From: Capillimicrobium parvum
Lineage (GTDB): Bacteria > Actinomycetota > Thermoleophilia > Solirubrobacterales > Solirubrobacteraceae
Assembly (NCBI RefSeq): GCF_021172045.1
Contig: NZ_CP087164.1
Coordinates: 3,658,001 to 3,722,000 of the forward strand
Reading direction: 5' to 3'
DNA: 64,000 nt
Part shown: positions 7,655 to 63,330 of the stretch, one piece after another
Layout of the letters: every line of letters begins with the position of its first letter
Numbering within the stretch: position 1 is the first letter of the stretch
Translations under genes and position numbers: made by a program
The notes under the pieces: generated by a model
Database searches by the model: none
What the model was told of the DNA's origin: nothing
What the model saw: the letters and a program-made list of their open reading frames with translations, nothing else

Positions 7655-7728
7655 GCCGGAGTAGCTCAGTCGGTTAGAGCAGCGGAATCATAATCCGCGT
7701 GTCGGGGGTTCGAGTCCCTCCTCCGGCA
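7655..7728 (+). tRNA. tRNA with anticodon CAT (elongator Met, or Ile2)
   Basis: 74 nt cloverleaf. The acceptor stem is GCCGGAG/CTCCGGC with discriminator A, and the D-loop is AGCTCAGTCGGTTAGAGC. The anticodon arm is GCGGA-ATCATAA-TCCGC with CAT in the loop, and the T arm is GGGGGTTCGAGTCCCTC. It lacks the three G-C pairs of initiator tRNA, so it is elongator Met or lysidine-type Ile. The 3' part is the attachment site used by the neighbouring island. Confidence 0.95.
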
Positions 7729-7729
7729 T
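7687..7729 (+). repeat. att copy 1 (tRNA 3' end)
   Basis: The 43 nt from the anticodon loop to one base past the tRNA (ATCATAATCCGCG ... CTCCGGCAT) recur exactly at 15479-15521 and with one A-to-G change at 63239-63281. A tRNA 3' end as a direct repeat, with a tyrosine integrase next to the far copy, is the classic signature of site-specific integration. Confidence 0.92.
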
Positions 7730-7732
7730 TGG

Positions 7733-7758
7733 AAAGGCCCTGCAAAAGCAGGACTTTT
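7733..7758 (+). terminator. Hairpin with T-tract after the tRNA
   Basis: CCTGC-AAAA-GCAGG stem-loop, extended by AAAG/CTTT pairing and ending in CTTTT. It could act as an intrinsic terminator for the tRNA. It lies just on the island side of the attachment repeat. Confidence 0.6.
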
Positions 7759-7792
7759 CGCGTTCCCCTGGAAGTACGAAGGTCATCGAAAT

Positions 7793-7822
7793 AGGTCCCG
7801 AACAAGTGTCCTCTCGGGACCC
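7793..7822. repeat. GGTCCCGAA-type inverted motif near att copy 1
   Basis: AGGTCCCGAAC (7793-7803) is followed by the inverted form CTCTCGGGACC (7812-7822). The same GGTCCCGAA word occurs twice at 15374-15395, near att copy 2. Repeated short motifs inside both ends of an integrative unit are what integrase arm sites look like; this role is inferred. The rest of the 250-bp gap up to 8011 shows no gene. Confidence 0.4.
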
Positions 7823-8011
7823 GTTCGGCCTCTCGGAGCGGTTCAATCGGACGCGTTCAGGGCCCGTACCGCCCGGCTCTGAACCCTGATCGCCGGTCGT
7901 GCAGGGGCATGGCGGACTGTGTCGCCGCCCGAGCCCACGTTGGCGCGTTGGCGTGCCCGTGGGCCCAGGCGCGGGCGTAGGCTCGCGCCGAGACCGCAGA
8001 GTCGCCATCCG

Positions 8012-11000
8012 ATGGTTCCGCTGCCAAGCACCAACGCGCGTCTTTTCGTCCGGCCCGCGGACATGCTCGTGCTGGCGGCGGAGTGGACCGGCGTGAGCGA
8101 GACCACGGCGCCGTCTGGGCAGCTACTCATCAGCCCGGCGTTCGCCGGCGAGGGTCGTGTGACGCTGACGCTGCCGCCGCAGGCGATCGCCGAGGCGAAG
8201 TTCGACCGCGACGACGACGTCGCCCGGCGCGGCGCCCGGCTCTCCGGTCCGAGCCAGGTGACGTTCCTCCTCGCCGACGACACGCAAATCGAGATGACTG
8301 CGGAAGGCCTGCTCGCCGCGCTTGCCGCGGCAGGCCAGCACGTCGAGCTGGTGGCCGCCGGGCGCGAGCCGACCGCGATCGAGCTCCCCTGGCACCTGAC
8401 GCTCACGCTCCAGCACCTCACCGGCGGCCAGGTCGTCTCGCGCCACGACGCGACGGCGGTCACGTCGGTAGGCGGCGTCGCCGGACTCTGGCACGCGCGG
8501 CTCTGCGCCGATGGCGCGGGCGAGGACGACGCGGCCCTGCTGTTGCTGCCGCTGCACGCTGACCAGGACGATGCGCAGCTCGATGTCCAGCCGCTGTCCG
8601 GGCAGCAGCGCCAGTCCATCGTCGACGCGGCCCATGCCGCGGCCGGCCCGGCGCTGGCCCGTGCCCGGCGGGTGGGGCTCGGCCCGCTCGGCGGCACGCT
8701 GTCCGCGGCGCTGTCGTCGGCGGACCTCGAGTGGAACCACGACGCCACGCTCGGGCGCGATCACCAGGTGCGCACCGCCGAGCACGGGGTGCTGTACCCG
8801 TTCGGCCACCGCGCGATCTTCGTCGAGACGGCGCGGCGCGAGCTGCTCCCGGCCGGCGACCCGGCGGTCGCGGGCCTGCACCGCGAGGCGCAGCTCATCA
8901 TCATCGACCGCAAGCGGGCGACGACCGACGGAGAGCTCGAGCTGCGCCGGCGGTTCCCGTTCAGCGAGGTCGAGATCCTCGCGGCGAGCTTCCCGCACAT
9001 GAAGCCGCCGAGCCCCGCGGACTTCACCACCGTCCGCCGCCCCGTCGTACCGCACGGCGAGCTCGCAGACGAGCAGCAGCAGCTGCGCGACCAGCGGGCC
9101 GAGCTTGCGGCGCTGGTGCAGCAGCGGATCGACGACCTCCCGGACGCGCTGCAGGCGTACCTCGATGCGCACATGGGCTCCTCCGACCAGCTCGCCGACG
9201 CTCAGCAGCACCTGGCCGACACGCCCGACCCGCAGACACTGAGAGAGGAGAACGCCGAGACGAACCGGACCATCGACCTGCTCGAGCACGAGCTTGGCCT
9301 GCTCGTGCCGACCACGGGCGCGGACGGCGAGACGATCGAACCCGATCCGGCCCAGGTGCAGGCGCTGCAGGACCAGATCTCCGCGCTGATCGCCACCCTG
9401 CACTCCAACGCCGAGATCCAGCAGGCGGCCGTCGACTTCCCGGCGGCGGTCGCTGCGGTGCAACAGCTGCAGGCGGCCGTCCAACGCGAGTTCGACAACC
9501 TGGCGCGCACGCTCGACGCCCTCGCCGCCCAGGGCGACGAGCAGGCCGTCGGCGTCCAGAACCTCGACGCGGCGATCGCCGCCCTGCAGGTCCGGCTCGA
9601 TCGTCTCGACCGGGCCGAACACGCGGACGAGCCGCTGGCGTATGTCCCGCAGACGCCCGACGGCACGCCGCTGCGCTTCCCGCTCCGGTTCGCCGCGGCG
9701 GCCAGCGACGTCGTTCTCGACATGCCGTTGGTCTTCGTGAGGGACTTCTCGCTGCGGGAGGAGGAGTTCCTGCCGGCGTTCTCCTCGCTGACCGATCCGA
9801 CGGCTCTCGCGACGGTGGCGTCGCTGTGGCAAGGCCACGCGGTCGTGCCCGTGCCCGGCGTGCCGATCGACATGGTCAACAGCGGCCAGCCGCAGCCGCT
9901 GCCGGGGGACGTGCACCAGGTCCATGCCCTGACGCTCGCAGGAGTCGCGCACTCCGGCGGCTTCCGGCCGACCATCGGCCAGTTCGACGTCGAGCTGCCG
10001 TCGCTGCGCTCGCTCCTGCCCGAGACCGGCGGCGTCCGGCCGCTGCATTTCACCGAGGCGTTCCTCAACGAGCCGGAGATCCCCGAGCTGCCGTTCACCC
10101 TGGACCCGCGCTTTACCGGCGACCCCGCCATTGGTATCGGGATCGACTTCGTGCGCCAGGCGCAGCGCTCGGGCGGTCTGGTCTCGCCGAAGTTCGTCGT
10201 CGACGGGATCTCGCGCCGCCTTGGACCGGTCGCCGCCCGCGCGCTGCCGCCGGGCCTCGCCGACGCGCTGCCCCCGGGCATCCCCACCTTCGACCTCGCG
10301 TCCGTCTATGCGGGCGCGACGCTACTGGGCTTCCCGCTCACGTCGCTGATCAAGCTGCCCCTCGACCCGTTGTCGGCCGCCACCGACGCCTTGCCCAAGC
10401 CGCCGGCGATGACGCAGTTGCTCGACGCCGGCATCCCGACGGGGATGCGGATGTCGTGGACGCTTGACCTGCAGGAGCACGGGCCGTTTCGCCCCGGCCC
10501 CGCCACGAAGCTCACGCTGACGGTCGAGTGCTCGGCGGCACGCCAGGACACGACGTGCACGGTCAACGACTTCGCGCTCGTGCTGCCGCCCGGCGGCTCC
10601 GTCGCGGGGCTGCTGACGCTCAACTTCCGGTCCCTGCAGTTCGCCCAGCATGAAGGCCGCACACCGGAGTTGAAGATCGACCACATGACGGTCGGCTTCG
10701 GCGGCGCGCTGAAGCTGTTGCAGGAGCTTCAGGCCGAGCTGCAGAAGGTGCTCGAACTGCCCGACACGGGCGTGAAGGTCGACGTGCGCCCCACCGGCCT
10801 GACCGCCGGCTATGGCGTCGCCGTCCCCAGCGTGACGGCCGGGACCTTCCTGCTGAGCAACATCGCGATGCAGGCGGGCGTCGACGTGCCGTTCGACGGC
10901 AAGCCGGTCACCGTGTCGCTGTCGTTCGCCAAGCGCGACAACCCGTTCACCGTCAGCGTCATGGCGTTCGGCGGCGGCGGTTATCTCGACATGACGCTCG

Positions 11001-11446
11001 GTCCGGAGGGCCTCATGCGGCTGGAGGCGTCGATCGACTTCGGCGCAGCGATCTCGGTGGACTTCTTCGTCGCCCGCGGCGAGGTCCACGCGCTGGGCGG
11101 CGTGCGGTTCCGCCAGGCCGGCGGCTCGATCGACATCGACGGCTTCATCAGCATCGGGGGCAGCGTCGAGGTCCTCGGCCTCGTCTCGGTGTCGATCGAG
11201 CTGCTGGTGACGCTGAGCTACCGCGACGGCAACCGGCTCGTCGGCCGAGCGACGATCGTCGTCGAGGTGGACCTGACGCTGTTCTCGCGCTCGGTGGAGA
11301 TCGACAGCGGCGAGTGGGTGCTCGCCGGCAGCGAGAGCCCCGCGCGGGAGAGGCTCGACGGCCCCGTGCCTGTGCTGTTCTCCGCCGAGGAGGACCCGCG
11401 CCTGGCCGCATGGCGCGCCTACCGACAGGCGTTCGCGACGGCATGA
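8012..11446 (+). CDS. Giant protein A of unknown function (1144 aa)
   Basis: No family recognised with confidence. The ATG at 8012 (MVPLPSTNARLFVRPADM) is preferred over an in-frame start at 7919, whose extra 31 residues are Arg/Pro noise. Three parts are visible. Residues about 1-340 are mixed alpha/beta with many short beta-rich stretches. Residues about 349-540 are Gln/Ala/Asp/Leu-rich with heptad-like spacing, a probable coiled coil. Residues about 570-1144 are beta-rich, ending in a long Gly/Val/Ser-rich region (around 985-1110) of alternating hydrophobic residues (AFGGGGYLDMTLGPEGLMRL, GSVEVLGLVSVSIELL). There is no signal peptide or transmembrane helix. It overlaps protein B by ATGA, so the two are probably made together, perhaps as structural or assembly partners (inference). 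Confidence 0.85.
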   Translation: MVPLPSTNARLFVRPADMLVLAAEWTGVSETTAPSGQLLISPAFAGEGRVTLTLPPQAIAEAKFDRDDDVARRGARLSGPSQVTFLLADDTQIEMTAEGLLAALAAAGQHVELVAAGREPTAIELPWHLTLTLQHLTGGQVVSRHDATAVTSVGGVAGLWHARLCADGAGEDDAALLLLPLHADQDDAQLDVQPLSGQQRQSIVDAAHAAAGPALARARRVGLGPLGGTLSAALSSADLEWNHDATLGRDHQVRTAEHGVLYPFGHRAIFVETARRELLPAGDPAVAGLHREAQLIIIDRKRATTDGELELRRRFPFSEVEILAASFPHMKPPSPADFTTVRRPVVPHGELADEQQQLRDQRAELAALVQQRIDDLPDALQAYLDAHMGSSDQLADAQQHLADTPDPQTLREENAETNRTIDLLEHELGLLVPTTGADGETIEPDPAQVQALQDQISALIATLHSNAEIQQAAVDFPAAVAAVQQLQAAVQREFDNLARTLDALAAQGDEQAVGVQNLDAAIAALQVRLDRLDRAEHADEPLAYVPQTPDGTPLRFPLRFAAAASDVVLDMPLVFVRDFSLREEEFLPAFSSLTDPTALATVASLWQGHAVVPVPGVPIDMVNSGQPQPLPGDVHQVHALTLAGVAHSGGFRPTIGQFDVELPSLRSLLPETGGVRPLHFTEAFLNEPEIPELPFTLDPRFTGDPAIGIGIDFVRQAQRSGGLVSPKFVVDGISRRLGPVAARALPPGLADALPPGIPTFDLASVYAGATLLGFPLTSLIKLPLDPLSAATDALPKPPAMTQLLDAGIPTGMRMSWTLDLQEHGPFRPGPATKLTLTVECSAARQDTTCTVNDFALVLPPGGSVAGLLTLNFRSLQFAQHEGRTPELKIDHMTVGFGGALKLLQELQAELQKVLELPDTGVKVDVRPTGLTAGYGVAVPSVTAGTFLLSNIAMQAGVDVPFDGKPVTVSLSFAKRDNPFTVSVMAFGGGGYLDMTLGPEGLMRLEASIDFGAAISVDFFVARGEVHALGGVRFRQAGGSIDIDGFISIGGSVEVLGLVSVSIELLVTLSYRDGNRLVGRATIVVEVDLTLFSRSVEIDSGEWVLAGSESPARERLDGPVPVLFSAEEDPRLAAWRAYRQAFATA

Positions 11447-14400
11447 GCGAACTGCTGTGGATCAGCGTTCCGGGGGGCGTCGACGGCCGCCCGCTGCTAC
11501 GCGTGCTCGTCGTGCCGCGCCTTGACGGCGGGACGCTCGCGGGGTCCGGCATGGCAGCCTGGCCGTCACGTGGACTGCTGGCCGGACCCGCGCTGAGCGT
11601 CGAATGGCGCGCCGGTGAGGGGTCGCCGATCACGGCGATTCCGGTGAGCTCAGGCGACGTCACGTTCACCCACCAACAGGACCTGTGGGCGCAGTTCTTC
11701 GCTGCCGAGACACCGGTCGGCACCACCGCGGGCCCCGTCCCTCCGCCCGAACAGCCGGTCGTCCAGCCGAGCTCGCGCGACGCCCAGGCCATCAGCGACA
11801 CGTTCGCGGCGCCGGCGGCGGTGGACTTCGGCGCGCCGGACTCGGCACCGCCGACGACATACCACGCGAAGGTGCAGGAGGCGCTCGCCACATGGACGCC
11901 GGACGGCGCCGACACCCCCGCTCCGGACCCTGCGCCGCCGGGTCCGCCGCCCCCGCCACCCGACTTCCACCTCACGATCTCCCTGCTGCGCGAGCATCCC
12001 GCCGTCCTGCGCGCGCTCGGGTTGATCTTCTCGGTGCGGGTGGCCCCGCCCGCCGGGCTCGCGCAGGCCGGTCAGGTGCGCATCGTCTGGCCGGCGCCCG
12101 ACCCGGGCCTGCCCACCATCGTCTCGCCCTGGTCGATGTACGGCACCGGATTCCTTCCGGCGTCGCGCGGGCCGGAGATCAGCCGCGGCATGGTGACGCT
12201 GACGCCCGACCCGGCGGTGACGGGCGATCCCGGCGGGCGCTGGACGGTGACGACCGTCGATGTCGAGGGCGGCGCCCGGAAGCTGCGCGACGCGTCGCAA
12301 CTCGTCGCGGCCGGTCAGGCGGCAGAGCTCGCCGCGGACCCGGCGAAGCCGCTCTCGCTGCCGACGATGCGCACCGCGGGCATCCAGCTCGTACGGGTCG
12401 ACCGCCACGCCGAGTTCGAACGCCGGCGCGGCATGGCGCTCGAGAGCAACGCCCGCGCCACGCTCGACGGAATGGTGCTCGACGCCGAGCATCTCGTCCT
12501 GGGCTACCGCATCGACATCCGACTCGGCAACCGGTGGCGATCGCTGCACCGGCGGATCGCGACCTACCACCGCGGAACGCCCGCCCAGGTCATCGGCGAG
12601 GCGGGTCTGCACGAAGAGGGCCACATCAAGGCCAACGGCGCCGCGCGCGGCGCCGACGACGTGCTGCGCGCGAGCGAGGTCGTCGCGCGCTGGAACGGCT
12701 GGAGCTTGGCGACCGTACGCCCGCGCTTCGACATGCCCGCCGTGGTCCCGGGGCCGTCGCGCGGGGCGGGTCTGGCGATCGCGTTCGGCTGGGACTTCGT
12801 GGCCGAGCCGGAATCGCTCCCCCGGTTGCGCTTCACCGAGCGGTACGCGCTGCGGGCTCGTGTGGCCGACATCGCCGGCGGCGGTCTCACGCTCGACGAT
12901 CCGCAGGCGGATCGCTGCGCGATCACCGAGATCGGCTACGGCCGCTTCGAGCCCGTCCCCTCTCCGCCGGTCCTGCTCGAGCCGGGGCTCACGGCCGCCG
13001 ACCTCGGCCCCGGCGAGGCCGTCGACCAGGTCGTTGTACGCAGCGACCCAGGGTCGACGGTTGACGCGTTCGTCGCGCAGAACCCCGGCTACACGATGCG
13101 ACCACGGCGCAAGCTGCTGCGCCCGCGCACCTCGCTGGCGATCGCCGAGCAGCACAAGATGCTCGACCACGACGACGCGGACCAGACGTTCGCCTGGGTC
13201 CTGCGGGCGGTCGCAGCGGGTGACGCGTTCGGCGCCGAGGAGGCCGGGGACGGGCCGCTGCCGGATCCCGCGGCGGGCGGCATCAACGCCGTCCCGCGCG
13301 ACGAGGCGGGCAAGCCGCCGGCCGCGACCTCCGCCCACCGCGACTGGGACGCGCCCTGGCCACAGCCCGAACCACCCAAGACGCTCGAGCTGGCCGGCCC
13401 CCAGGCCGGCGAGCCCCCGGTCGCCTGGCGCGACGAGACGCTCGTCGTGCGCCTCGCACCGGGCGAGCGGGTCACCGTTGAGCTGTCCTCCCGGCTCACT
13501 GCCGACTTCCTCGACCACTTCGCGCTGCAGGACGCGATGCCGGCGTCGTCCAAGGGCGCCGCCCAGGCCGGGCGCCATCCGCTGATCACGCCCGTGCACC
13601 CGGTCACCCTCGTCCACGCGGTCCGCAAGCCGATCGATCCGCCTGATCCGGGCTCGACGCTGACTCCGGCGCCGCGCGAGTCAGGGCAGACGTTCGCCGT
13701 GCTCGCATCTGCGCCGACGCTGTTCGGCGTGGACGTCAACAGCACCGGGCAGCTCGACGTGAGCGCCGCCTGGACGGAGCACGCCGACGACGCGACACGA
13801 CAAGCGACCGCGTCGGTGCAGTCGTTCATCGTCGACCGCGGGGACACCGTGCTCAAGGAGCCGCTGCGACACGAATTCGGCGACACGCGCCATCGCGTCG
13901 TCACCTACACGGTGACGGCGGTCAGTCGCTTCCGGCCGTTCTTCCATCCGTCCGAGCTGACCGCCGACCCCGACGCCTTCGTCCAGCGCACCCAGCTCCG
14001 GGCGACGGTCCCGATCCCCAACACCGCGCGGCCCGCCGCGCCCACAGTGCTGGGCACTCGCCCGGCGTTCACCTGGAAGGATTCGCGTGAGCCGTCGGCC
14101 GGCGGCACCGTGACGCTGCGGCGCGAGCGCCTCGCCGGCCGCCTCCGGGTGGAACTCGGGCGACCGTGGTTCGCGACCGGTGAAGGCGAGCGCCTGGGAG
14201 TCGTGCTGTGGGACCGGCCGACCGGGGCGGCCGAGCCGCAGGCGCCGCTGGTGACCGAGTGCGGACGCGACCCGATCTGGGACACGACCGACCCGCCGCG
14301 GTGGCCGGCGGAGTCCCAACTGGTTGGCGCGGCGGGTCCTGCCGGACGCCACACGCTGCAGGAGGCGGCAGTGCCTGCACTGGTCGTGCCGTTCGAGCCG

Positions 14401-14970
14401 TTCTTCCACGGCGACCGCTGGTACGCGGACGTCGCGCTGCCGGGCCTCGCCTCGGCCTCCTATTGCCCGTTCGTGCGGCTGGCGGTGGCCCGCTGTCAGC
14501 CCGACAGCATCGCCGATCACCATCTCTCCCCAGTCGTGCTCTGCGCGATGACGCAATTGCTGCCCGACCGCACGCTCACGGTCGAGCAGGCGGGCTCGAC
14601 GGTCCAGGTCAGCCTTGCCGGGCTCGGACCGCGAGGCCCTCAGCCGAACCGCGTTGACGTGGTGGTCGAGCAGTGCGGCGCGCCCCGGCCACTCGCCGAC
14701 ACGGTGCAGATGTCCTCTCTGGAGCCCGGCCCTACAGGCGACGGCGTGCCGGTCTGGCGGCCCGTCGCCGACCATGTGGTCCACACGACGCTGAACGCCG
14801 CCCCGATCACCGTGCCGCTGCCGGGCGGCGGCGCTGCCACCCGCCTGCGCATCCGCGAGGTCGAGCTCGTGGGGGCCGACGTCGGAGCCCCGGAGCCGCA
14901 GGCCGGCTCGCCGGGCGAGCTCGGTGAGCGCGTGACGTTCACCGACACAGTGCTCCTGCCCCTGAACTGA
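11443..14970 (+). CDS. Giant protein B of unknown function (1175 aa)
   Basis: Starts MSELLWISVPGGVDGRPLLR at an ATG that overlaps protein A's TGA (ATGA); the longer frame from 11314 lies inside gene A. No family recognised. Residues 1-155 form a compact start. A proline-rich linker follows (PDPAPPGPPPPPPDFHL, about 165-178). The remainder is beta-rich with many Arg and Trp, including an FN3-like strand pattern (HRVVTYTVTAVSRFRPFF, about residue 820). No transmembrane helix, signal peptide or enzymatic motif is evident. The size match with protein A and the coupling suggest a two-protein complex. It is the last sizeable gene of the att-flanked 7.75-kb unit. Confidence 0.85.
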   Translation: MSELLWISVPGGVDGRPLLRVLVVPRLDGGTLAGSGMAAWPSRGLLAGPALSVEWRAGEGSPITAIPVSSGDVTFTHQQDLWAQFFAAETPVGTTAGPVPPPEQPVVQPSSRDAQAISDTFAAPAAVDFGAPDSAPPTTYHAKVQEALATWTPDGADTPAPDPAPPGPPPPPPDFHLTISLLREHPAVLRALGLIFSVRVAPPAGLAQAGQVRIVWPAPDPGLPTIVSPWSMYGTGFLPASRGPEISRGMVTLTPDPAVTGDPGGRWTVTTVDVEGGARKLRDASQLVAAGQAAELAADPAKPLSLPTMRTAGIQLVRVDRHAEFERRRGMALESNARATLDGMVLDAEHLVLGYRIDIRLGNRWRSLHRRIATYHRGTPAQVIGEAGLHEEGHIKANGAARGADDVLRASEVVARWNGWSLATVRPRFDMPAVVPGPSRGAGLAIAFGWDFVAEPESLPRLRFTERYALRARVADIAGGGLTLDDPQADRCAITEIGYGRFEPVPSPPVLLEPGLTAADLGPGEAVDQVVVRSDPGSTVDAFVAQNPGYTMRPRRKLLRPRTSLAIAEQHKMLDHDDADQTFAWVLRAVAAGDAFGAEEAGDGPLPDPAAGGINAVPRDEAGKPPAATSAHRDWDAPWPQPEPPKTLELAGPQAGEPPVAWRDETLVVRLAPGERVTVELSSRLTADFLDHFALQDAMPASSKGAAQAGRHPLITPVHPVTLVHAVRKPIDPPDPGSTLTPAPRESGQTFAVLASAPTLFGVDVNSTGQLDVSAAWTEHADDATRQATASVQSFIVDRGDTVLKEPLRHEFGDTRHRVVTYTVTAVSRFRPFFHPSELTADPDAFVQRTQLRATVPIPNTARPAAPTVLGTRPAFTWKDSREPSAGGTVTLRRERLAGRLRVELGRPWFATGEGERLGVVLWDRPTGAAEPQAPLVTECGRDPIWDTTDPPRWPAESQLVGAAGPAGRHTLQEAAVPALVVPFEPFFHGDRWYADVALPGLASASYCPFVRLAVARCQPDSIADHHLSPVVLCAMTQLLPDRTLTVEQAGSTVQVSLAGLGPRGPQPNRVDVVVEQCGAPRPLADTVQMSSLEPGPTGDGVPVWRPVADHVVHTTLNAAPITVPLPGGGAATRLRIREVELVGADVGAPEPQAGSPGELGERVTFTDTVLLPLN

Positions 14971-15093
14971 GCGGCGTGGGTGGGCGCTCGCTCTGGTCGA
15001 GCGCAATCGTTGCGCCTTGGCGTTGGCGGTAGCTCCGCACCGCCCCGGCGTTCCTGGGCGCGGGTACCTGGTGTCGCCCAGGGCAGGCGTCTT

Positions 15094-15318
15094 CTAGCGG
15101 CGGATGCTCCGGGCGCACGGTTCGCAGAGCGGCGTGCCGCCGTACCGCACGACCGCGCAATCTCTCGGGTGGTAGTTGCATCCCGCGCTTGGCCCGGGCT
15201 GCCCCCAGGGTGGTGGCAAGCCAACCGAGTAGGAGCTGTCCGCAGGCGGGCTCGCGCCGATGAACGCCCGCTTCCCGCACGGTCGGCAAGAACATCTGAT
15301 TGAGGCCCCGCACGACAT
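15094..15318 (-). CDS. Possible small Cys-rich (zinc-ribbon-like) protein
   Basis: 74 residues from an ATG at 15318. Cysteines are spaced CxCxxC near the N-terminus (CSCRPCGK), with a C-terminal CNYHPRDC and CEPCARS, a plausible four-ligand zinc site. The segment YHPRDCAVVRYGGTPLCEPC looks like a genuine protein pattern rather than shadow noise. No ribosome-binding site is obvious. It is the only other gene candidate in the 500 bp between giant protein B and att copy 2. Confidence 0.35.
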   Translation of the reverse strand: MSCGASIRCSCRPCGKRAFIGASPPADSSYSVGLPPPWGQPGPSAGCNYHPRDCAVVRYGGTPLCEPCARSIRR

Positions 15319-15373
15319 TCACCGGCGCCGCGCGACGTCGGCGCCCTAAACGCCAGGCGCGCCTGCCGATTCG

Positions 15374-15395
15374 GGTCCCGAAAAAGGTCCCGAAC
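15374..15395. repeat. Two GGTCCCGAA motifs near att copy 2
   Basis: GGTCCCGAA at 15374-15382 and GGTCCCGAAC at 15386-15395, direct repeats 12 bp apart. They match the motif beside att copy 1. They are proposed arm-type sites for the left unit; the function is inferred. Confidence 0.4.
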
Positions 15396-15464
15396 TGCCC
15401 AGTTCTGACCGCTGCTGAGGGGGTCTCAGGGCACCTCAGAGCCCCCGAGACATCGCGTTAGTGC

Positions 15465-15476
15465 GCCAAATTTGGC
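15465..15476. repeat. Perfect palindrome next to att copy 2
   Basis: GCCAAATTTGGC, a 12-bp perfect inverted repeat in an AT-rich island, 2 bp before att copy 2. A related palindrome (GAGCCAATTTTGGCTC) precedes att copy 3. It is possibly a recombinase or excisionase site. Confidence 0.4.
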
Positions 15477-15478
15477 CG

Positions 15479-15521
15479 ATCATAATCCGCGTGTCGGGGG
15501 TTCGAGTCCCTCCTCCGGCAT
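15479..15521 (+). repeat. att copy 2 (exact tRNA 3' end duplicate)
   Basis: 43 nt identical to 7687-7729. No acceptor 5' half or D-arm precedes it, so it is not a functional tRNA. It splits the island into a 7.75-kb left unit and a 47.8-kb right unit. Confidence 0.92.
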
Positions 15522-15546
15522 GATGTGATGTCTCGGGACATCGGTC

Positions 15547-16118
15547 TCAGTTCGGGGGGCCCGGCCATCGGCCGGGCTCTGTGTTTTGGTTGCGCCAGTA
15601 GCTGCGGTTGGGGTCGATGTGGTGGACGGAGAGCACTTCGCCGGTGGTGGTGGTCGTCGGCGAATGCGAGGACGCGTTTGCGGGCGTGGACGGTGCCGAG
15701 TCCGAGGTGTGCATGCGGCCGGCGCGGCGGATCGTCATGCGGCCTTTGGGATCGAGTCGGTCGTAGCGCACGCGGTAGTGCCCTGGGGCGTGTCCGTTGC
15801 TGGCGGGGGCGGCCTTTGGGGTGGCGCGGTAGGCGTCGCCGGGGGTGCGCCGGTGCAGCGCTCGGTGCGGGCGGCGCTCGTTGGAGTGCTTGCGAAACTC
15901 GTCGCGCTGGCGTTGGAGTTCGGGGAGCGTTCGGGCGGGCGGTCTGGCGTTCAGCCAGCGCTGCAGAGTCTGGTGGAAGCGCTCGGTCTTGCCTTGGGTT
16001 TGCGGGTGTCCGGGGGATCCGTTCTTCTGGCGAACACCGAGGATCGGTAGGAGGTCTTCAAACGCGTTGCGGCCGCCGCCGAACCGGGCGGTGTAGACGC
16101 GGCCATCGCGACCGGCCG
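15547..16118 (-). pseudogene. IS481-family transposase remnant (left copy)
   Basis: Reading leftward, the segments LLPILGVRQKNGSPGHPQTQ, GKTERFHQTLQRWL, ERRPHRALHRRTPGDAYR and HHIDPNRSYWRNQNTEP follow the C-terminal half of an IS481 DDE transposase, up to the GPPN end. Compared with the copy at 63.3 kb it has a deletion of about 23 bp and a one-base loss, both frameshifting. The N-terminal half is missing. The terminal sequence TGTCTCGGGACAT lies between it and att copy 2. Confidence 0.8.
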
Positions 16119-16330
16119 TGGCTGATCAGCGTGAAGTCGACCAGCAGTCCCGGGACGGTGGCTTCGGCGGCCGACCAGCTGGCGTCGCTGTCCGGCCTGG
16201 ACGGGGTCGCCATCCTCGTCGTGCCATTCATGACACCCGCCGGGGCGAAGGCCGCCGCCCGGCGCGGGCTGAGCTGGATCGACTTGTCGGGCAACACGCA
16301 CGTGCGCGACGACGACCTCTACAAGGCGAT
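16118..16330 (+). pseudogene. Fragment of a conserved 'VEVK...LVVPFM...WIDLSGN' protein
   Basis: The frame reads VKSTSSPGTVASAADQLA, then VAILVVPFMTPAGAKAAARR and GLSWIDLSGNTHVRDDDLY. This pattern occurs in a group of bacterial proteins with a nuclease-like or winged-helix (AbiEi-like) fold; that assignment is from memory and tentative. Both ends are missing, since it runs from the IS481 remnant into an unrelated fragment. Confidence 0.45.
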
Positions 16331-16687
16331 CGGCCGCCAGGACGCCATCACCATGTTCAACCTCGGCGCGGCGCTGGGCTTCGTCGCCGACCGCGACGCC
16401 CTGGCCGACCCCTCCGGCTTCTGGCTCGTCGACGACGCCTTCAACGACACGACACCGCCGGTCTATGCACGGTGATGACCCACGAGATCGGCCACCTGCT
16501 CGACCTCGACCACGCGCCCGCCCCGGCAAACGTCATGTCCCCCACCTACCGGGCCGACACGGAGACCTGCACGACCGCGTTCCCACCCAAGCCCGCGCCT
16601 CCATCGCCGCCCGCCGTCGAGCCCCCGCCGATCGACACCCTCGACCGCGTCGCTGGGCGCACGCCAAGCCCGTCGCGCCGGCAGTGA
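16322..16687 (+). pseudogene. Remnant of a matrixin-like zinc metallopeptidase
   Basis: One frame reads GFWLVDDAFNDTTPPVYAR and stops at 16475. The next frame continues VMTHEIGHLLDLDHAPAPAN with NVMSPTY. HEIGHLLDLDH fits the zinc motif HExxHxxxxxH and is followed by a Met-turn-like NVM. The frameshift and lack of a start mark it as decayed. Confidence 0.55.
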
Positions 16688-18363: not shown

Positions 18364-21300
18364 TCAGCCAGAGGCGTAGGGCATCGTCGCCTGTGCCAAC
18401 AGCTCGTTCGGCTTGCGGTTTGAGTCAGCTGTTCCCGCGATTGGGATCTCCACCTCGATGAGCGTTCCGCTTCCGGACGGGCTCTCGATCTGTATCCGAC
18501 CTCCGAGCGCCTCGATTCGATCCCGCAGCCCCGTCAGTCCGGACCCTCGGTTGGAGTCCGCGCCGCCCACACCGTTATCGCGAATCGAAAGCACAAGCAT
18601 GTCGTCCTCGACACGGAGGGAGACCCACACGCGCGTGGCGTTCGCGTGCTTTGACGCGTTGGTGAGCGCCTCCGAGACGGTGTAGTAGGCGGCTACCTCG
18701 ACATGGTCCGGGAGCCGTTGCTCGAAGCCCATGTCGAGCTTGACGCGGACTGGAGAGCGGCGCCCGAGTGCTTTCAGCGCCGGCGAGAGACCCCCCTCGG
18801 AGAGGATCGATGGATGGATACCGCGTGAGAGCTCACGCAGTTCGTCGATGGCCATCGTCAGACCATCCGCAACGCGGGTGAGATCGGCGCGGAGCTCGTC
18901 GGCTCCCGTCGGAAGCTTCGCACCGGCCCTGCGGAGCGCGACGGTCAGGGTGACGAGTCGCTGCTGTGCTCCGTCGTGCAGGTCGCGCTCGATGCGGCGG
19001 CGGGCGTCGTCGCCGGCTGCAACTATGCGCGCGCGTGAGGCGGCGAGCTCTGCTCGGCTGTCGGCGTTTGCGATCGCGGTGCCCAGCAGCTCGGCGAACT
19101 TCTCGAGGCGCTTCTCCGCGTTGACCGGGAGGCGTTTGTTCATGGCCGTGACCGTCACGAAGCCCCATTGCTGCCCCTCGACAACGATCGGGGCCCCAAC
19201 CGATGAGACGGCGCCGATCTCCCGAAGCAGGTCAGCCATCCGGCCGGAGATGTGTTCGAAGTCGCTCCGCTCGACGCGGGCGTGGCGACCTGTCCGGTGG
19301 ACCAGCGTCGATGCCATGTAGTCCTCGAGCTCCCAGCGCGATCCGGTCGAGACCCCGCGGATGCCGTCGCTCACGCCAACGACGACCATCGCCGATCCAT
19401 CGGCTTCGAAGCGCCCGACGTACGCTTGCGAGGAGTCGAACAGGCCCCCCATTTCGTTCGTGACCGCCGAGAAGATCTCCTCAGGGCTGACGCCGCGCGC
19501 CACCAGCGTGGCCACCCGCCGCAGCGCCGCCTGCTCGTCGGCCAGCTCGCGAGCGCGCGCCTCCGACGCTGCCAGCTCGGCGCGCGCCTCGTAGTTCGCG
19601 ATCGCCGTGGCAACCAGCTCGATGAAGTCGTGGAGACGATCCTCCGTTCCCGCGGGAAGTGGCACCCCTGCCCGCGAGAAGACGCACATCTTGCCCCACA
19701 CGGCTCCATTGACCACGATTGGACCCGCACAACCGGAACCGAGCTGCGCCGCACGCGCAAGCTCCCCAACCATTCCCGGCGCCGTCGAGAAGTCATCGAC
19801 TCGCGCGGGGCCGCGCGTGTCAAAGACTGCCGCAGCGAGGCTTCCAGGCTCTCGTGGCGTCCTGGTACCGACGCCGAGGAATCGCTCCGCTCCTGCGAGG
19901 TCGGGCCGAAATGCCTCGCCGAGCGTGAGAGCCGTTCCGTCGGCGTCGTAGCGCGTGACGATCACGCCGGGCGCGTCCAAGACGGATGCGACCTCTCGAG
20001 CGACGGTGGAGAAGAGCTGCTCTGACACCGGCGCGCGGGCGACCATCGTGGCCACCCTCCGCAGCGCCGCCTGCTCGTAGGCCAGCTGCGCGAGGCGGTC
20101 GCGGGCCTGACTGTCCGCGATCGCGGTCGCGACCAGCTCGGTGAATCGGGCGAAATGCTCTTCGGTGCCGGCGGGGATCCTTGCACCCTGCTTGGCCGCT
20201 CCGGTCATGAACCCCCAGATGGAGCCGTCGACGACGATCGGGACGCCGACGATCGAGAGCATCCCGTCCTCTCTGACGGCGGCGCCCAGCGGTCCCGGCA
20301 TCGTCGTGTAGTCCTGCTTCCGCGCCGGGCGCCCGGTGGCGAGGATCATCCCGGCCACGCCCTCGTCCTCGACAGGCCAACGACTCCCGACCGTGAAGCT
20401 CGTCTCGCCGGCGATGCCCACCATCGTGAACGTCCGGTCAGGGCCGTAACGCTGCAGGGCCACGAGAGGCACATCGATGACGTCCGCGACCTCCCTTACG
20501 ACGGCGGCGAACAACTCGTCGGAGCTCGTGCCCTTCGCGACGAGCGTCGCGACTCGGCGCAGGGCCGCTTGCTCTCCGGCGAGGGCGCGCGCGCGCGCCT
20601 CCGAGGCGGCCAGCTCGGCGCGGCTCTCGGTATTCGCGATCGCGGTGGCCACCAGCTCGGTGAACTTCTCAACCCGCTTCTCCGCGTTGGCGGGCGGTTG
20701 GTCATCCCCTCTCCAGCTCGCCGCGATCACGCCCCAAAGCGCGCCGTCGACGACGATCGGCGCCCCGACCGTGGCGTTGACGTCGTCGCGACGGAGTACC
20801 TCGGCGATGGTGCCGCTCCCGCCTTCGGCGAAATCGAGTCGCGCCGAGCGTCCCGTGCGCAGGATGCGGGCATTCACGCTGTCGCCGTCGAGCGGCAGAC
20901 GCACTCCGGTGCGGACGATCTCAGGGCTCTGGCCGCGAATCGCCAGGACCGAGATCTCGTGCTCGTTCTCGTAGCGGGCCAAGCCGGTCTGGGCTGCTCC
21001 GAGCAGCTGGCCGACCTCGGCGATGACGGCGTCGAACACCTCAGCGGGCGCGGCGCCCTCGGCGACGAGCGTCGCGACTCGCCGTAGCGCCGCCTGCTCC
21101 TCCACGAGCCTCGACAGCTCGTCACGCGCTTCCGCGTTGGCAATTGCCGTCGCGACCAACTCGGTGAACTCCGCGATCCGCGAGTCGGTCTCTAGCGGAA
21201 GAGGCTCGCTCTGACTCGTGACGGCGATCAGCGTGCCCCACAGCCTGCCTTCGGCGACAATCGGAGTGGCGACGCTCGAACGAATGCCCAGGACACGCGC

Positions 21301-23586
21301 CATTTCGGCGACCGGGCCCGTGGCCTTCGCCCAATCGTCGAGGCGAGCGGCCTCCCTCGTTCGAAATACGGCGGTGACGACGTTCTCGCCCTCCAGCGTG
21401 AAGCGGGCGCCCAGCGGAGGCGGGTCCCACGGGGTATCTGACTGCGCGACGAGCGTGGCCGTCCCGTCGCGCTCAAAGCGAAGCATCCCGACGGCCTCCA
21501 CGTCCAATACTCGCGCCACCTCTTCCGCGACCGTCTCCAAGAGCTCGACCGGCGAGGCTTCGCGGGCTACGAGTGTTGCCACGCGCCGCAGCGCCGCCTG
21601 CTCGTCAGCGAGCTGGCTGAGTGCGGCGCGCGACTCGGCGTTCGCGAGCGCCGTCGCGACGAGATCCGTGAAGTCTGCCAGCCGCGCGCCCGTGTCTTCG
21701 GGAAGCGATGCGCTTCGCGGCGAGAGAAGCACCATCGCGCCCCACACGCCCCCTCCGACGACAATCGGGCTTCCGACCGCAGAGCGCATCCCTGCCGCCC
21801 GAACCGCACCAGCGCTGTCCCCGGGCACCTGCTCGTAGTCCTCGACGCGCGCGGCGCGACCAGTACGCCGGATCGTTGCCAGGAGCCCCGGCGTGTCGAA
21901 CTGCCAGCGCGAGCCGATCGGGAACGGCTCGTCGCCAGTCTCGCTGAAGCCGCCTACCACGACCGCGGCGGTCGGCTCGTAGCGGATCAGTCTGACCAAT
22001 GAGACCTCGAAGACGCGCGCGACCTCCTCGGCAACGACAGCGACGAGGCGTTCAGGAGACGACTCGTAGGCGACGAGGGTTGCGACCTGCCGCAAGGCGG
22101 CCTGCTCCTCGGCGAGCTCGCGCAGATGCCTCTCGGCCCGTTTCGTCGCAGAGATGTCGCGCAGCGCGCCGCAGATGAGGACCGGCTCGGCCTCGACCAG
22201 GCTCAGCGCCAGCTCGACAGGAAACTCGCTGCCGTCCGCGCGCATGCCGGTGAGCTCCACCCGGCGCCCGAGCATGTTCCCTTCGCGGGTCTTCACGAAG
22301 CGAGCGAAGGCGGCGCTGTGGCGCTCGCGAAGCGAAGGCGGCACGATCAGCTCGGCCATCGTCCGCCCGAGCGCCTCCGTGCGGGAATAGCCGAACGTCC
22401 GTTCGGCGGCCGGGTTGAACTCGACGATGCGCCCTGACGCGTCCGCCACGATGACGCAATCGATGGCCGCCTCCAGATACGCGCTCAGGTGCTCCCCCGC
22501 CCTCGGGCGCGGCCAGCCCTCCTCGACTTCCGCGGCGCGCTCACAAGCGTCCCCGCGCGGCGGGGCAGCTCGCTTCCTCCCAGGTTCGCGAGCGCGCTCT
22601 TCGGCCCTGCCGAGCGCCTCGCCCGGTGCGGCCCTGGCGCGCCGTCGGTCTGACCGGCGGACGAGATAGGCCTCGCCCTGACCCAGCGGCTCTGCCACGG
22701 CGAGCGATCCGTCGCCCATGGCGATCTCGCCACCGCTCTCGGGAATGTCGAGTGGCTTTGGGTGCGCCAGGCGGTCGCCGATGAGCAGGTAGCCCTCTCG
22801 GTTGACGAGCAGATCGCTGCTCTTCGTCGTGAGATCGCCGTAGCGACGCCGAAGGCGGTCGTCCTGGTCGCGCCGGTGCTCCAGCAGGCATTGCTCCGTC
22901 GTCCTCGCCGCACCGGCCACGAGCTCCAGGCTTCCGGGGTGGGCGATCCTCCAGGGGCTCGAGAGATCGATGACCCCCATGAGCCGGCCGGAGACCGGAT
23001 CGTGGATCGGAGCGCCGGAGCAGACCCATTCGCGGTGGTGGTAGCTGAAGTGCTCGAAGGCGAACACCTGGACCGGGTGATCTGCCGCCAGCGCCGTACC
23101 GACGCCGTTCGTGCCGTTGACGGTTTCGCTGCACCGCGCGCCCTCGACGAGATTCATCTCGGCGGCCTTCGCCTTGAGCCACTCGGCGCCGCCCAGATAG
23201 AGCGTGAGCCCGGACGCATCGGTCACCTGGACCAGGCTGTTGGACTCCTCGGCCAGCATCTGAAGTGGCTCTGCGAGCACGTGCCTGAGCAGTCCGAGCG
23301 GATGCTCGAGCCAGCGCTCACGCGTCTCTGACGGGTCCGCCTCGATCGCGGGCAGCGGATCGATCGCCTCCAGGCCCGTGGCCAGCGTGCGCCGCCACGA
23401 GTCGACGATCGCGGGTCGCAATCCCGCCGTCATCTCCGGAGGGAGCTCGGGGCCGAGGGCCCCCTCACCGAGCGCGCCCTCGCCGACCAGGTGGTCCCAG
23501 CGCCTCTGCAGCACTCGAGCGCGCGTCAGCAGATCAGTGTGCGCTCCGACTGCTTGCCACGGCGATGGCATCCCCCTGGCGATCAT
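18364..23586 (-). CDS. Giant multi-GAF/PAS sensor histidine kinase (1740 aa)
   Basis: Order of parts: an N-terminal AcoR/DhaR-like sensor region (RPAIVDSWRRT; GTNGVGTALAADHPVQVF) to about 330, then a PAS domain at about 365-490 (CVIVADASGRIVEFNPAAER). Six tandem GAF modules follow, beginning near 492, 660, 829, 1002, 1170 and 1350, each opened by an 'EQAAL RxVATxVA' helix. Next are HisKA_3 (RRRIERDLHDGAQQRLVTL, about 1528; His in DLHDG) and a HATPase (SEALTNASKHA, DNGVGG, GSGLTGLRDRIEALGG). It is a NarL-type cytoplasmic kinase with no transmembrane helix. Likely inputs are small ligands, redox or light (inference). Receiver-only and NarL-type partners are encoded within 5 kb. Confidence 0.93.
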   Translation of the reverse strand: MIARGMPSPWQAVGAHTDLLTRARVLQRRWDHLVGEGALGEGALGPELPPEMTAGLRPAIVDSWRRTLATGLEAIDPLPAIEADPSETRERWLEHPLGLLRHVLAEPLQMLAEESNSLVQVTDASGLTLYLGGAEWLKAKAAEMNLVEGARCSETVNGTNGVGTALAADHPVQVFAFEHFSYHHREWVCSGAPIHDPVSGRLMGVIDLSSPWRIAHPGSLELVAGAARTTEQCLLEHRRDQDDRLRRRYGDLTTKSSDLLVNREGYLLIGDRLAHPKPLDIPESGGEIAMGDGSLAVAEPLGQGEAYLVRRSDRRRARAAPGEALGRAEERAREPGRKRAAPPRGDACERAAEVEEGWPRPRAGEHLSAYLEAAIDCVIVADASGRIVEFNPAAERTFGYSRTEALGRTMAELIVPPSLRERHSAAFARFVKTREGNMLGRRVELTGMRADGSEFPVELALSLVEAEPVLICGALRDISATKRAERHLRELAEEQAALRQVATLVAYESSPERLVAVVAEEVARVFEVSLVRLIRYEPTAAVVVGGFSETGDEPFPIGSRWQFDTPGLLATIRRTGRAARVEDYEQVPGDSAGAVRAAGMRSAVGSPIVVGGGVWGAMVLLSPRSASLPEDTGARLADFTDLVATALANAESRAALSQLADEQAALRRVATLVAREASPVELLETVAEEVARVLDVEAVGMLRFERDGTATLVAQSDTPWDPPPLGARFTLEGENVVTAVFRTREAARLDDWAKATGPVAEMARVLGIRSSVATPIVAEGRLWGTLIAVTSQSEPLPLETDSRIAEFTELVATAIANAEARDELSRLVEEQAALRRVATLVAEGAAPAEVFDAVIAEVGQLLGAAQTGLARYENEHEISVLAIRGQSPEIVRTGVRLPLDGDSVNARILRTGRSARLDFAEGGSGTIAEVLRRDDVNATVGAPIVVDGALWGVIAASWRGDDQPPANAEKRVEKFTELVATAIANTESRAELAASEARARALAGEQAALRRVATLVAKGTSSDELFAAVVREVADVIDVPLVALQRYGPDRTFTMVGIAGETSFTVGSRWPVEDEGVAGMILATGRPARKQDYTTMPGPLGAAVREDGMLSIVGVPIVVDGSIWGFMTGAAKQGARIPAGTEEHFARFTELVATAIADSQARDRLAQLAYEQAALRRVATMVARAPVSEQLFSTVAREVASVLDAPGVIVTRYDADGTALTLGEAFRPDLAGAERFLGVGTRTPREPGSLAAAVFDTRGPARVDDFSTAPGMVGELARAAQLGSGCAGPIVVNGAVWGKMCVFSRAGVPLPAGTEDRLHDFIELVATAIANYEARAELAASEARARELADEQAALRRVATLVARGVSPEEIFSAVTNEMGGLFDSSQAYVGRFEADGSAMVVVGVSDGIRGVSTGSRWELEDYMASTLVHRTGRHARVERSDFEHISGRMADLLREIGAVSSVGAPIVVEGQQWGFVTVTAMNKRLPVNAEKRLEKFAELLGTAIANADSRAELAASRARIVAAGDDARRRIERDLHDGAQQRLVTLTVALRRAGAKLPTGADELRADLTRVADGLTMAIDELRELSRGIHPSILSEGGLSPALKALGRRSPVRVKLDMGFEQRLPDHVEVAAYYTVSEALTNASKHANATRVWVSLRVEDDMLVLSIRDNGVGGADSNRGSGLTGLRDRIEALGGRIQIESPSGSGTLIEVEIPIAGTADSNRKPNELLAQATMPYASG

Positions 23587-55494: not shown

Positions 55495-56577
55495 ATGGAA
55501 GACGTCGAGCAGTCCTGGCGCCTGGCCGACCGCCGATCGTTCCTGCTGAGGGGTGCGGCGGTTGGCGCCGGCGCCATCGGCGTGAGCCGCCTCCTGACCG
55601 CTCCGCCAGCCTCCGCGAGCGGAGGGCTCACGAAGGGGGACATGGCCATTCTCCAGTTCCTCGCCGCGGCCGAACTGCTCGAGGCGGACCTGTGGGAGCA
55701 GTACAACGAGCTCGGCGGGGTCCAGGACAGCGAGCGCCCCGGCGGAACCGGCAACAAGGCCTACACCGCCGCCCTCTCGGTGCTGGACAAGGACATCCCG
55801 CAGTACATCCACGACAACGCCGAGGACGAGCAGAGCCACGCGAGCTTCATCAACGCGTATCTGGAGGCCAACGGAGCGGATCCCATCAACCTGGACAAGT
55901 TCCGCACCGTGCCCGGCAGCAAGGCGACCGGCGCTCGTCAGATCGGCCGCTTGACCAACCTGATGGAGCTGACCATCGACACGAGCTGGTGGACGCGCTA
56001 CCGCAGCGACTCGCAGAATCCGGACCTGGGTGACACCCTCCCGCACGCGGTCCCCGACCTGGCTGTGGGAAAGCACCCGGCGATCCCGCGCAGCGACGAC
56101 GATCTGCGCCCGCGCAAGCACCTGCAGGCGATCGCAAACACGGCCGGCTTCCACTTCGGCACCATCGAGCAGGGCGGCAGCAGCCTGTACGCCTCCCTGG
56201 CGCAGCGAGTGACGAACCCGGAGGTGTTGCGCATCCTGCTGAGCATCGGCCCCACGGAAACGATGCACTTCCAGACGTGGCAGGACAAGGCTGGCAACGC
56301 TCCGCCGCTGACCGATCCCACCACCGGCCTCACGTTCCCCGACCTGAACGCGGGACGGCCGCTGTTCAAGGCCAACCGGATCATGCCCGAGCCGACCCGC
56401 TTCCTCGATCCGAAGTTCCCGCGCTGCTCGATCATCCGCCCCACCAACACCGAGGGCGCTGCCCTTGGCGCGGCGAAGTTCCTGACCGCCATGGGGCTGT
56501 TCCACGGACAGTCGCCCGACTTCTTCGCCGGCGTCCAGGCGCTGGCTGAGGCCGCGGACGCCGCGCAGCGTCAGTAA
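55495..56577 (+). CDS. Tat-exported ferritin-like domain protein
   Basis: 360 residues, MEDVEQSWRLADRRSFLLRG. Twin-arginine signal DRRSFLLRGAAVGAGAIGVS, ending ...PPASASGG. The first part is a ferritin-like four-helix domain (LQFLAAAELLEADLWEQYNE with Glu ligands, then HDNAEDEQSHASFINAYLEA with E..H). A second helical half has PTETMHFQTWQDKAGN. Probably a secreted metal-binding or peroxide-related protein. Strong site GAAGGAGAAG. tatA and tatC follow directly. Confidence 0.87.
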   Translation: MEDVEQSWRLADRRSFLLRGAAVGAGAIGVSRLLTAPPASASGGLTKGDMAILQFLAAAELLEADLWEQYNELGGVQDSERPGGTGNKAYTAALSVLDKDIPQYIHDNAEDEQSHASFINAYLEANGADPINLDKFRTVPGSKATGARQIGRLTNLMELTIDTSWWTRYRSDSQNPDLGDTLPHAVPDLAVGKHPAIPRSDDDLRPRKHLQAIANTAGFHFGTIEQGGSSLYASLAQRVTNPEVLRILLSIGPTETMHFQTWQDKAGNAPPLTDPTTGLTFPDLNAGRPLFKANRIMPEPTRFLDPKFPRCSIIRPTNTEGAALGAAKFLTAMGLFHGQSPDFFAGVQALAEAADAAQRQ

Positions 56578-56916: not shown

Positions 56917-57855
56917 ATGGAAGCGTTTCCGCTGCGAGCCGTCGCTCACGACGAGCGCCTCACGCTGACCGAGCATCTCGGCGAGCTGCGAGCACGGCTC
57001 CTGCTGAGCGTGACGGTGTTGGCAGTCCTGTTCGCGGGATGTTTGTGGCAGAGCCGCTCGCTCCTGCACGTGCTCAACGTGCCGTTGGCCCAGATCACGA
57101 TCAGCTCGCCGGCGGAGGGTGCCCGCGGCGAGCTGCCCCAGGCGCTGGCGCGCAGCGCCAGCGCCTTCACCCGGCTCGCGCACGCCTCCTCTCTCGCCCC
57201 GGCCGACCAGCGGGCCGCGCTGAACGCCGCCCGCTCCCTCGGGGCCGCCAGCCAGACGCTCTCGCGCCCCGACGCCCGTGCGCCGATCACGCTCGGGCTC
57301 GGGGAGCCGTTCGCCACCTCGGTCACGGTCGCGTTTGCCTTCGCGTTGCTTCTCGGACTGCCGTTCCTGCTGTTCCAGGCGTGGGCGTTCATCTCACCGG
57401 CGATCGCTCCCGCCGAGCGGCGCGCGGTGCGTCCGCTCCTGTTGTGCGCCCCCGCCCTCTTCGCGATAGGGGTTGCGTTCGCCTACTTCCTGGTCCTTCC
57501 GCCGGCCGTGCGGTTCCTACAGGGGTTCAACCACGGCGCCTTCGATGTCATGGTTCAGGCGCGCGCCTACTACCGCTTCGAGCTCATGACTATGCTCGCG
57601 CTCGGCGCGATGTTCGAGATCCCCGTCGTGCTGCTGGCGCTCGGTCGCGCGGGCATCCTCAGCTCGGCGGCGTTGCGCCGCCATCGCCGGTACGCGATCG
57701 TCGGGCTCTCCGTCCTGGGCGCGCTCCTGCCCGGTACAGACCCCGTGACCACTCTGCTCGAGACGCTGCCGCTCTTCGGCCTCTATGAGGCGACGATCGT
57801 CCTGCTTCGCTTGAGCGAGCACAGACGCGACCGGCAGCAGGCGCTCTCCGCATAA
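56917..57855 (+). CDS. tatC: TatC twin-arginine translocase subunit
   Basis: 312 residues. The N-terminal cytoplasmic LTEHLGELRARLLLSVTVLA (conserved E..LR.R) and six helices are visible, with FLLFQAWAFISPAIAPAERR. Between helices 1 and 2 the external loop is much longer than usual (from about residue 55 to 125, including ARSASAFTRLAHASSLAPAD). 21 bp after tatA. Together with the ferritin-like gene it forms a three-gene Tat cassette. Confidence 0.92.
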   Translation: MEAFPLRAVAHDERLTLTEHLGELRARLLLSVTVLAVLFAGCLWQSRSLLHVLNVPLAQITISSPAEGARGELPQALARSASAFTRLAHASSLAPADQRAALNAARSLGAASQTLSRPDARAPITLGLGEPFATSVTVAFAFALLLGLPFLLFQAWAFISPAIAPAERRAVRPLLLCAPALFAIGVAFAYFLVLPPAVRFLQGFNHGAFDVMVQARAYYRFELMTMLALGAMFEIPVVLLALGRAGILSSAALRRHRRYAIVGLSVLGALLPGTDPVTTLLETLPLFGLYEATIVLLRLSEHRRDRQQALSA

Positions 57856-63281: not shown

Positions 63282-63330
63282 TGTGTGATGTCTCGGGACA
63301 TGGGTCTCACATGTCTCGGGACATCGGTCT

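Follow-up and report, generated by a model that had tools for sequence, protein, structure and literature searches.

A widely distributed, co-inherited pair of giant proteins on a mobile-looking tRNA-site island of Capillimicrobium parvum

Background

What is the role of two giant genes that are the only long plausible genes of a small island beside a tRNA gene? The question is raised by a stretch of 64,000 nucleotides (nt) of the Capillimicrobium parvum genome (contig NZ_CP087164.1, positions 3,658,001 to 3,722,000), which is referred to here as the window. An earlier note, made from the sequence alone, had described in it two proteins of 1144 and 1175 residues whose genes overlap by ATGA. 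Direct reading of the sequence gives the same two genes, referred to as A and B, with the same overlap.

8012-11446, + strand: gene A, 1144 residues, ATG start, open reading frame (ORF) read directly
11443-14970, + strand: gene B, 1175 residues, ORF read directly

The frames are open over 3.4 and 3.5 kilobases (kb), with GC contents at third codon positions (GC3) of 0.93 and 0.90, and the conserved positions of the family alignments are retained in both. A GTG lies in frame upstream of the start of A, at 7919.

Pairing and co-inheritance

Genes A and B form a pair that is inherited together. Both are encoded on one strand in 95 of 103 loci (L014-L116), and A stands first in 94 of them; in the 95th (L097) both frames run off the contig. 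The co-occurrence that the earlier note had proposed to look for in other genomes is therefore found, and since the loci were chosen via A or via B and not via the pair, the adjacency counts as a finding, in a sample where the 80 best B matches favour close kin. In 81 of the 95 loci the two frames overlap or lie within 50 nt, the overlaps being overcounted because the most upstream ORF starts were taken; 11 loci have a spacing of 51-250 nt. The three wider spacings comprise one locus with a split A (L017) and two with a WD40 gene between A and B. Eight loci hold B only. Five of these have B at a contig end, with an A-like end readable by eye at the edge in two, and three are on rhizobial plasmids, where the ORFs of B are of 511, 698 and 1261 residues.

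The distances within A and within B agree closely over the 63 loci with both genes that entered the comparison: the two matrices correlate with r = 0.945, a value that was reached in 0 of 2000 permutations, and the correlation is 0.829 over the 1884 locus comparisons in which B is less than 45% identical. The alignments contain 67 A and 74 B proteins in addition to those of the window, A ORFs below 890 or above 1700 residues and B ORFs below 1000 or above 1500 residues having been dropped.

Genes flanking the pair vary from clade to clade in the loci read. No universal third gene is present among 750 neighbour ORFs, where the recurrent groups are either restricted to single clades or belong to broad families, response regulators for instance. 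The supposition of a self-contained unit of two genes is upheld by this conservation, and in the loci read the pair is not always embedded in a larger locus of which it could be the remnant.

Distribution of the family

Among 61 genomes comprising its own and its near relatives, B is encoded in its own genome only and is absent from the other 60. Within the phylum, 11 of 396 genomes encode A, the source genome of the window being one of them, and B adjoins A in all ten others. In a collection of 72,556 plasmid records, A has 14 matching records and B has 15 at E up to 1, and 12 records match both. When 84,980 species genomes were scanned with a single ten-residue pattern taken from the alignment of B, 529 stretches matched. 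B relatives account for 429 of these, a number that is a lower bound; the best 80 of the 429 were kept. Members are found in Streptomyces, Nonomuraea, Amycolatopsis and kin, whose envelope has a single membrane. All the annotated copies encountered are labelled 'hypothetical protein'.

The B tree of 75 rows covers 11 phylum-level groups, with six rows in none. Window B groups with two proteins of Hymenobacter, a member of the Bacteroidota (approximate likelihood ratio support, SH-aLRT, 98), inside a wider set of 12 members that includes eight Actinomycetota and one Sphingomonas (SH-aLRT 100). Transfer between phyla would be the simple reading of this tree, which is a quick one made without bootstraps.

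Giant versions of the pair are encoded in Ruegeria (L018, 6013-21647) and Sinorhizobium (L020, 7045-21519), with A of 3311 and 3052 residues and B of 1899 and 1766 residues; large stretches of these A proteins fall outside the core match. A phage origin was considered and rejected: none of 50,697 phage genome records matches A or B (E up to 10), and a viral fold library gave weak rows only, tail fibres among them. When viral contigs were scanned by pattern, no relative of A came up, and B had a relative on a single contig (16.7 kb).

Sequence searches

Comparison with Pfam, NCBIfam, PHROGs, PADLOC and the sequences of the PDB gave nothing above noise for the core of A or of B. The cores gained no family either when 17 relatives of A and 15 of B were compared with the libraries, or when profiles were run against PDB sequences. 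The earlier note had been unable to assign a family either, and judged by sequence the pair is filed under none. We regard it as new because family matches are absent, and not on the strength of a demonstrated new mechanism. No work on the pair was recognised in literature listings and the starts of abstracts.

As regards defence systems of the Jet/SMC type, the coiled coil of A is the only part with matches, to PADLOC (E 0.11) and to SMC of NCBIfam (E 0.04), the best NCBIfam row being TraB (E 0.0048). DUF4376 matches A in one of 17 members (E 1.2e-4 over 34 residues, below its own cut-off), and Apolipoprotein matches a different A, again one of 17, at E 5e-5; both hits were set aside as due to chance or to the coiled coil. 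Four long A proteins (up to 3311 residues) gave a sub-threshold TAT_signal match only.

Predicted structures

Structure prediction, which had been advised in the earlier note, was carried out for A and B singly and was informative for parts of them, giving FnIII-like (fibronectin type III-like) domains in B and a barrel-like sheet in A; matches over the whole length are poor. The model of A has a mean predicted local distance difference test score (pLDDT) of 84.6 and a predicted template modelling score (pTM) of 0.69 (68 sequences), and that of B has 88.0 and 0.70 (75 sequences). The VIA fold rows cover residues 903-1119 of A and 505-1175 of B; other parts, which may yet hold known folds, are barely covered.

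Protein A is comprised of a beta-rich N-terminal part, a coiled-coil insert at about 349-536 and a C-terminal amphipathic beta-meander at about 922-1105 with strands of up to 19 residues. The region 903-1119 resembles parts of outer-membrane barrels (OmpG and CymA, Z 13.1, root mean square deviation (rmsd) 4.2-5.0 over 168-177 residues), and 213 of 981 chains reach a Z of at least 8; closure of the barrel is not seen in the model. In the region 922-1105, 12 of 13 strands have one face with at most 9% charged, N or Q residues (68 rows). Hydrophobic runs of at least six residues were also counted, with OmpF, OmpA, OmpG, LptD, TamA, TamB, YdbH and PepN of E. coli for comparison. The family has 2.71 runs per 100 residues (standard deviation 0.56), the five barrels 0.18-1.75, the two grooves (TamB, YdbH) 1.30 and 1.53 and PepN 0.23, so that the test cannot tell a barrel from a groove because the family scores above both. 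The weak top rows of Foldseek (E 1.2e-3 to 0.06) are many porins mixed with ApoB100, MTP and TULIP-type proteins.

Protein B has an N-terminal part, the poly-Pro linker that had been described, which lies near residue 165, and FnIII-like beta-sandwiches that take up the rest of the chain from about residue 504. FnIII chains head its match list, with 15 chains at Z of at least 8 over 263-362 aligned residues. The rmsd, taken across several domains, is 8-17, and there is no match in sequence; the best Z is 9.7, to tenascin (rmsd 14.2 over 267 residues). Wall-binding domains are present in two of 15 B proteins scanned, CWB2 at the end of one (E 2e-46) and PG_binding_1 in another.

The long coiled coil that had been predicted in A is seen as helices at 349-536 of the window model, and as a family trait it does not hold, being absent from most of the relatives seen. 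Counterparts of 92-234 residues occur in eight of 13 loci of the subclade, the other five having 19-23 residues at this place, and the more distant A members aligned lack it. Judged by these alignments, the coiled coil is a lineage-specific insert.

A WD40 propeller has been identified in four of the five insert-less kin, either fused to A or located between the two genes:

L042, 5343-10001: WD40 propeller
L045, 7885-10005: WD40 propeller
L046, 5564-7491: WD40 propeller
L039, 7823-9980: WD40 propeller, assigned by eye

The fifth, L041, has a similar gene 3.2 kb upstream. By sequence it looks as if propeller and coiled coil replaced each other.

Export signals

Signals of the twin-arginine translocation (Tat) type were sought within the first 110 residues as an RR motif with a hydrophobic, uncharged stretch behind it, genes cut by contig ends being left out. 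They are found in 32 of 88 complete A proteins and in 0 of 99 B proteins, with a background of 14 in 1900 shuffled A N-termini and 24 in 862 neighbour ORFs. Most of the A matches look classical, of the SRRKFLSYAG- or SRRELLGLAG-type. The match in L076 looks false by eye; it is counted in the 32 and scored as absent on the tree. Extending the scan up to the start of the core gives 33 for A and one for B, both additional cases being unconvincing. On the B tree the signal is present in 24 of 65 rows and its state changes at least seven times, the 10 of 75 rows with a cut A having been left out.

A signal on one subunit only, the pattern of Tat hitchhikers, is seen at the level of the family and not in the window pair. 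Because A often has a twin-arginine signal and B has none, we infer that, in the signal-bearing lineages only, Tat would move the two folded proteins out together, B being the hitchhiker. On a Sinorhizobium plasmid tatA directly follows the pair.

The window proteins are as plain as they had first been described. The library scans give neither of them an enzyme domain, both lack a Tat-like signal, and strongly hydrophobic 18-mers free of charged residues are absent from both (highest mean hydropathy 1.46 for A and 0.77 for B).

Gene neighbourhoods

From the neighbours of the pair 119 were listed, and 62 hand-chosen proteins, not all from that list, were examined further. Exported hydrolases are seen near the pair, including M23, astacin, neprosin, C70 papain-like, Amidase_2, patatin, phospholipase C and M35 types. 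In one Hymenobacter a PG_binding gene adjoins the pair.

A tie of the family to tRNA sites, which had been thought worth a search, is not borne out and was rejected. Any predicted tRNA is present in only five of 60 loci scanned, inside B in L044 and at least 2.6 kb away in the other four.

In a clade of Streptomyces and Kitasatospora, B is followed by a protein of about 300 residues, then by another unknown protein and, further down, by an ATP-grasp protein:

L049, 13796-16586: extended set behind B, ATP-grasp assigned by Pfam in this locus only; similar genes in L052, L054, L058, L063 and L064

This set is possibly an extended version of the A-B system.

Possible function of the pair

Our preferred reading, which is tentative (probability roughly 0.35), is that A and B make up an exported two-subunit complex dealing with lipid or membrane; lipid or membrane as the target is a guess. 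One operon and translational coupling would provide the two subunits of an obligate giant complex, of about 2,300 residues in the window, which would fold and assemble in the cytoplasm. In signal-bearing lineages the Tat translocase would then carry the folded pair out, with B as the hitchhiker. Outside the cell B may act as a scaffold of FnIII-like domains, and A may bind lipid or membrane through its C-terminal sheet, one face of which is wholly hydrophobic. Accessory modules would be swapped by clade: the coiled coil in A in part of the kin of the window, WD40 beside or fused to A, and wall-binding domains on single B members. The window copy would belong to a compact signal-less subclade that crossed phyla, and would either function intracellularly or be exported in a different way.

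Several observations weigh against this reading. Foldseek of A against the PDB gave no match at E 0.001 or better, whole-length fold matches have a template modelling score of about 0.1, and up-down meanders readily match one another. The count of hydrophobic runs separates no barrel from a lipid groove, the family lying above both classes. A Tat-like signal is missing from 56 of the 88 A proteins; it is absent from window A, from the frame upstream of it and from the 13 loci of its subclade. A folded load of the size of A and B would also be very large for Tat, and the association with hydrolases, being without a control, is an impression.

In a much more specific form of the reading, which we consider improbable, the pair would be a lipid-carrying particle of two proteins. 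Tat would export the folded complex of about a quarter-megadalton with its signal-less B, and outside the cell the complex would act as a shuttle for hydrophobic cargo such as lipid, as a bacterial counterpart, in working principle, of apolipoprotein/MTP-type carriers, the mobile signal-less branch that includes the window pair being in other use.

A cell-surface or matrix structure made of A and B, be it an adhesin, S-layer-like or fibre-like, is a lesser but real possibility. The FnIII-like domains of B would suit it, as would CWB2 and PG_binding on single B members and the PG_binding gene beside the pair in Hymenobacter. However, wall-binding domains occur in only two of the 15 B proteins scanned, a crude scan that did not include sortase motifs gave no consistent membrane segment in the family, and the window pair is signal-less.

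A possibility of nearly the same weight is that the pair is a two-component weapon, secreted or released by lysis, in which B would bind the target cell and the sheet of A would insert as a pore. The patchy spread over phyla and plasmids, with B absent from 60 near relatives, is what such a weapon might show, and the barrel-like sheet and the exported hydrolases nearby are consistent with it. Pore toxins, however, seldom show their barrel before insertion, no immunity-like partner recurs beyond single clades among the 750 neighbour ORFs, and the neighbour counts are without a control.

A cytoplasmic system, perhaps of anti-phage defence, with the Tat-bearing members as another branch, is unlikely. 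It would account for the compact signal-less subclade on a mobile island, the weak SMC/JetC-likeness of the coiled coil and the WD40 partners; Tat-like signals in 32 of 88 A proteins argue against it, as does the lack, in the library scans, of any enzyme domain or of a PADLOC family beyond the one weak coiled-coil match (E 0.11). The link to defence that the earlier note had floated receives no positive support. That the pair is a decayed remnant of a larger locus is very improbable, since in spite of the split A (L017) and the three rhizobial plasmids with B but no A, both window genes are open with high GC3 and conserved positions kept, and the loci read have, as a rule, just these two genes.

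The exported complex stays our preferred reading. The window pair costs about 7 kb and about 2,300 residues and, being so costly, almost perfectly co-inherited and with kin in distant phyla, it should pay. Because the Tat signal is one-sided, export, and how large a load Tat can take, could be tested directly and at low cost. The pair is widespread, with at least 429 loci with a B relative in the 84,980 species genomes, yet neither core has a model in the libraries searched.

The island at the tRNA gene

The features that delimit the island are as follows.

7655-7728, + strand: tRNA-Met (CAT), integration site
7687-7729, + strand: attachment (att) copy 1, the tRNA 3' end, 43 nt, by direct-repeat comparison
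15479-15521, + strand: att copy 2, 43 of 43 nt the same as the tRNA 3' end, by direct-repeat comparison
61239-63044, - strand: tyrosine recombinase, candidate integrase for the att series (PF00589, E 1.2e-15)
63239-63281, + strand: att copy 3, right end of the second tandem island, by repeat comparison

The identical repeats that had been reported around a single operon are exact over 43 nt, and they bound an interval of 7.8 kb with A and B as its sole long plausible genes (7730-15478). The description of the unit as integrase-less holds between the first two copies, where no recombinase gene is present, and fails at the third copy, which lies 195 nt from the tyrosine recombinase. Att copy 3 has a single mismatch, whether a 32-nt probe or all 43 nt are compared, and no match arose when the window was shuffled 100 times. 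Because this third copy adjoins the recombinase, two islands lie in tandem at one tRNA, of 7.8 kb with the A-B pair and of about 47.8 kb with the recombinase.

The block at 0.5-7.6 kb of the window is kept beside the same tRNA in the relatives G002, G003, G004 and G008. Beyond 7.7 kb the sole window ORF (of at least 100 residues) matched in seven flanks of six genomes is the recombinase, with 27-31% identity in G005, so that one side of the tRNA is conserved and the other is variable. In G005 and G006 (L135-L137) the same tRNA gene is followed downstream by further tRNA-Met att copies, and recombinase-like ORFs adjoin both copies in G005. From these features the tRNA-Met site looks like an integration hot spot and the island carrying A and B looks mobile.

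Other features were observed around the islands. The DNA that follows att copies 2 and 3 (15528-15917 and 63311-63720) is 93% identical over 411 alignment positions and is perhaps the end of a mobile element that was inserted twice beside att.

15094-15318, - strand: cysteine-rich ORF of 74 residues, zinc-ribbon-like by eye and with no Pfam match, in the 0.5-kb gap that separates B from att copy 2
16118-16684, + strand: matrixin-type metallopeptidase fragment, apparently incomplete (PF00413, E 4.2e-7, HEIGHLLDLDH motif), just past att copy 2
18364-23586, - strand: sensor histidine kinase of 1740 residues with many GAF domains and one PAS domain, near the start of the second island
55495-56574: Ferritin_2 protein, Tat-like start by eye, adjoining the TatC gene
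56917-57852, + strand: TatC gene in the second island (PF00902, E 1.6e-52), the genome having three TatC genes

Comparison with known systems

With outer-membrane barrels such as OmpG and CymA, the model of A shares a long antiparallel amphipathic meander. The A family differs in that it is not confined to hosts with an outer membrane, occurring also in one-membrane hosts (Streptomyces and kin), in its Tat-like rather than general secretory (Sec) signal, and in its long hydrophobic runs, which are more frequent than in the E. coli barrels used for comparison. With lipid carriers of the AsmA/TamB and ApoB/MTP types it may share a beta-sheet with one hydrophobic face, ApoB100 and MTP being among the weak Foldseek rows; it differs in having no significant fold match, no Pfam match and no inner-membrane anchor that could be seen. 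The likeness to Jet/SMC-type defence is limited to the coiled coil, no ATPase head domain having been matched. By its model B may be like FnIII multidomain proteins in its arrays of beta-sandwiches; its cores have no Pfam match.

PaoABC is a Tat hitchhiker complex of E. coli (PMC4273604). The A-B family is like it in having a signal on one subunit and a signal-less partner in the same operon. It differs in being far larger, in that no cofactor or enzyme domain was found, in the lack of a signal in the window member and in that its export is predicted only. While its first unit differs in being without a recombinase of its own, the window is like other tRNA-site genomic islands with a tyrosine recombinase in its repeats of the tRNA 3' end, in the recombinase adjoining one end and in the tandem copies.

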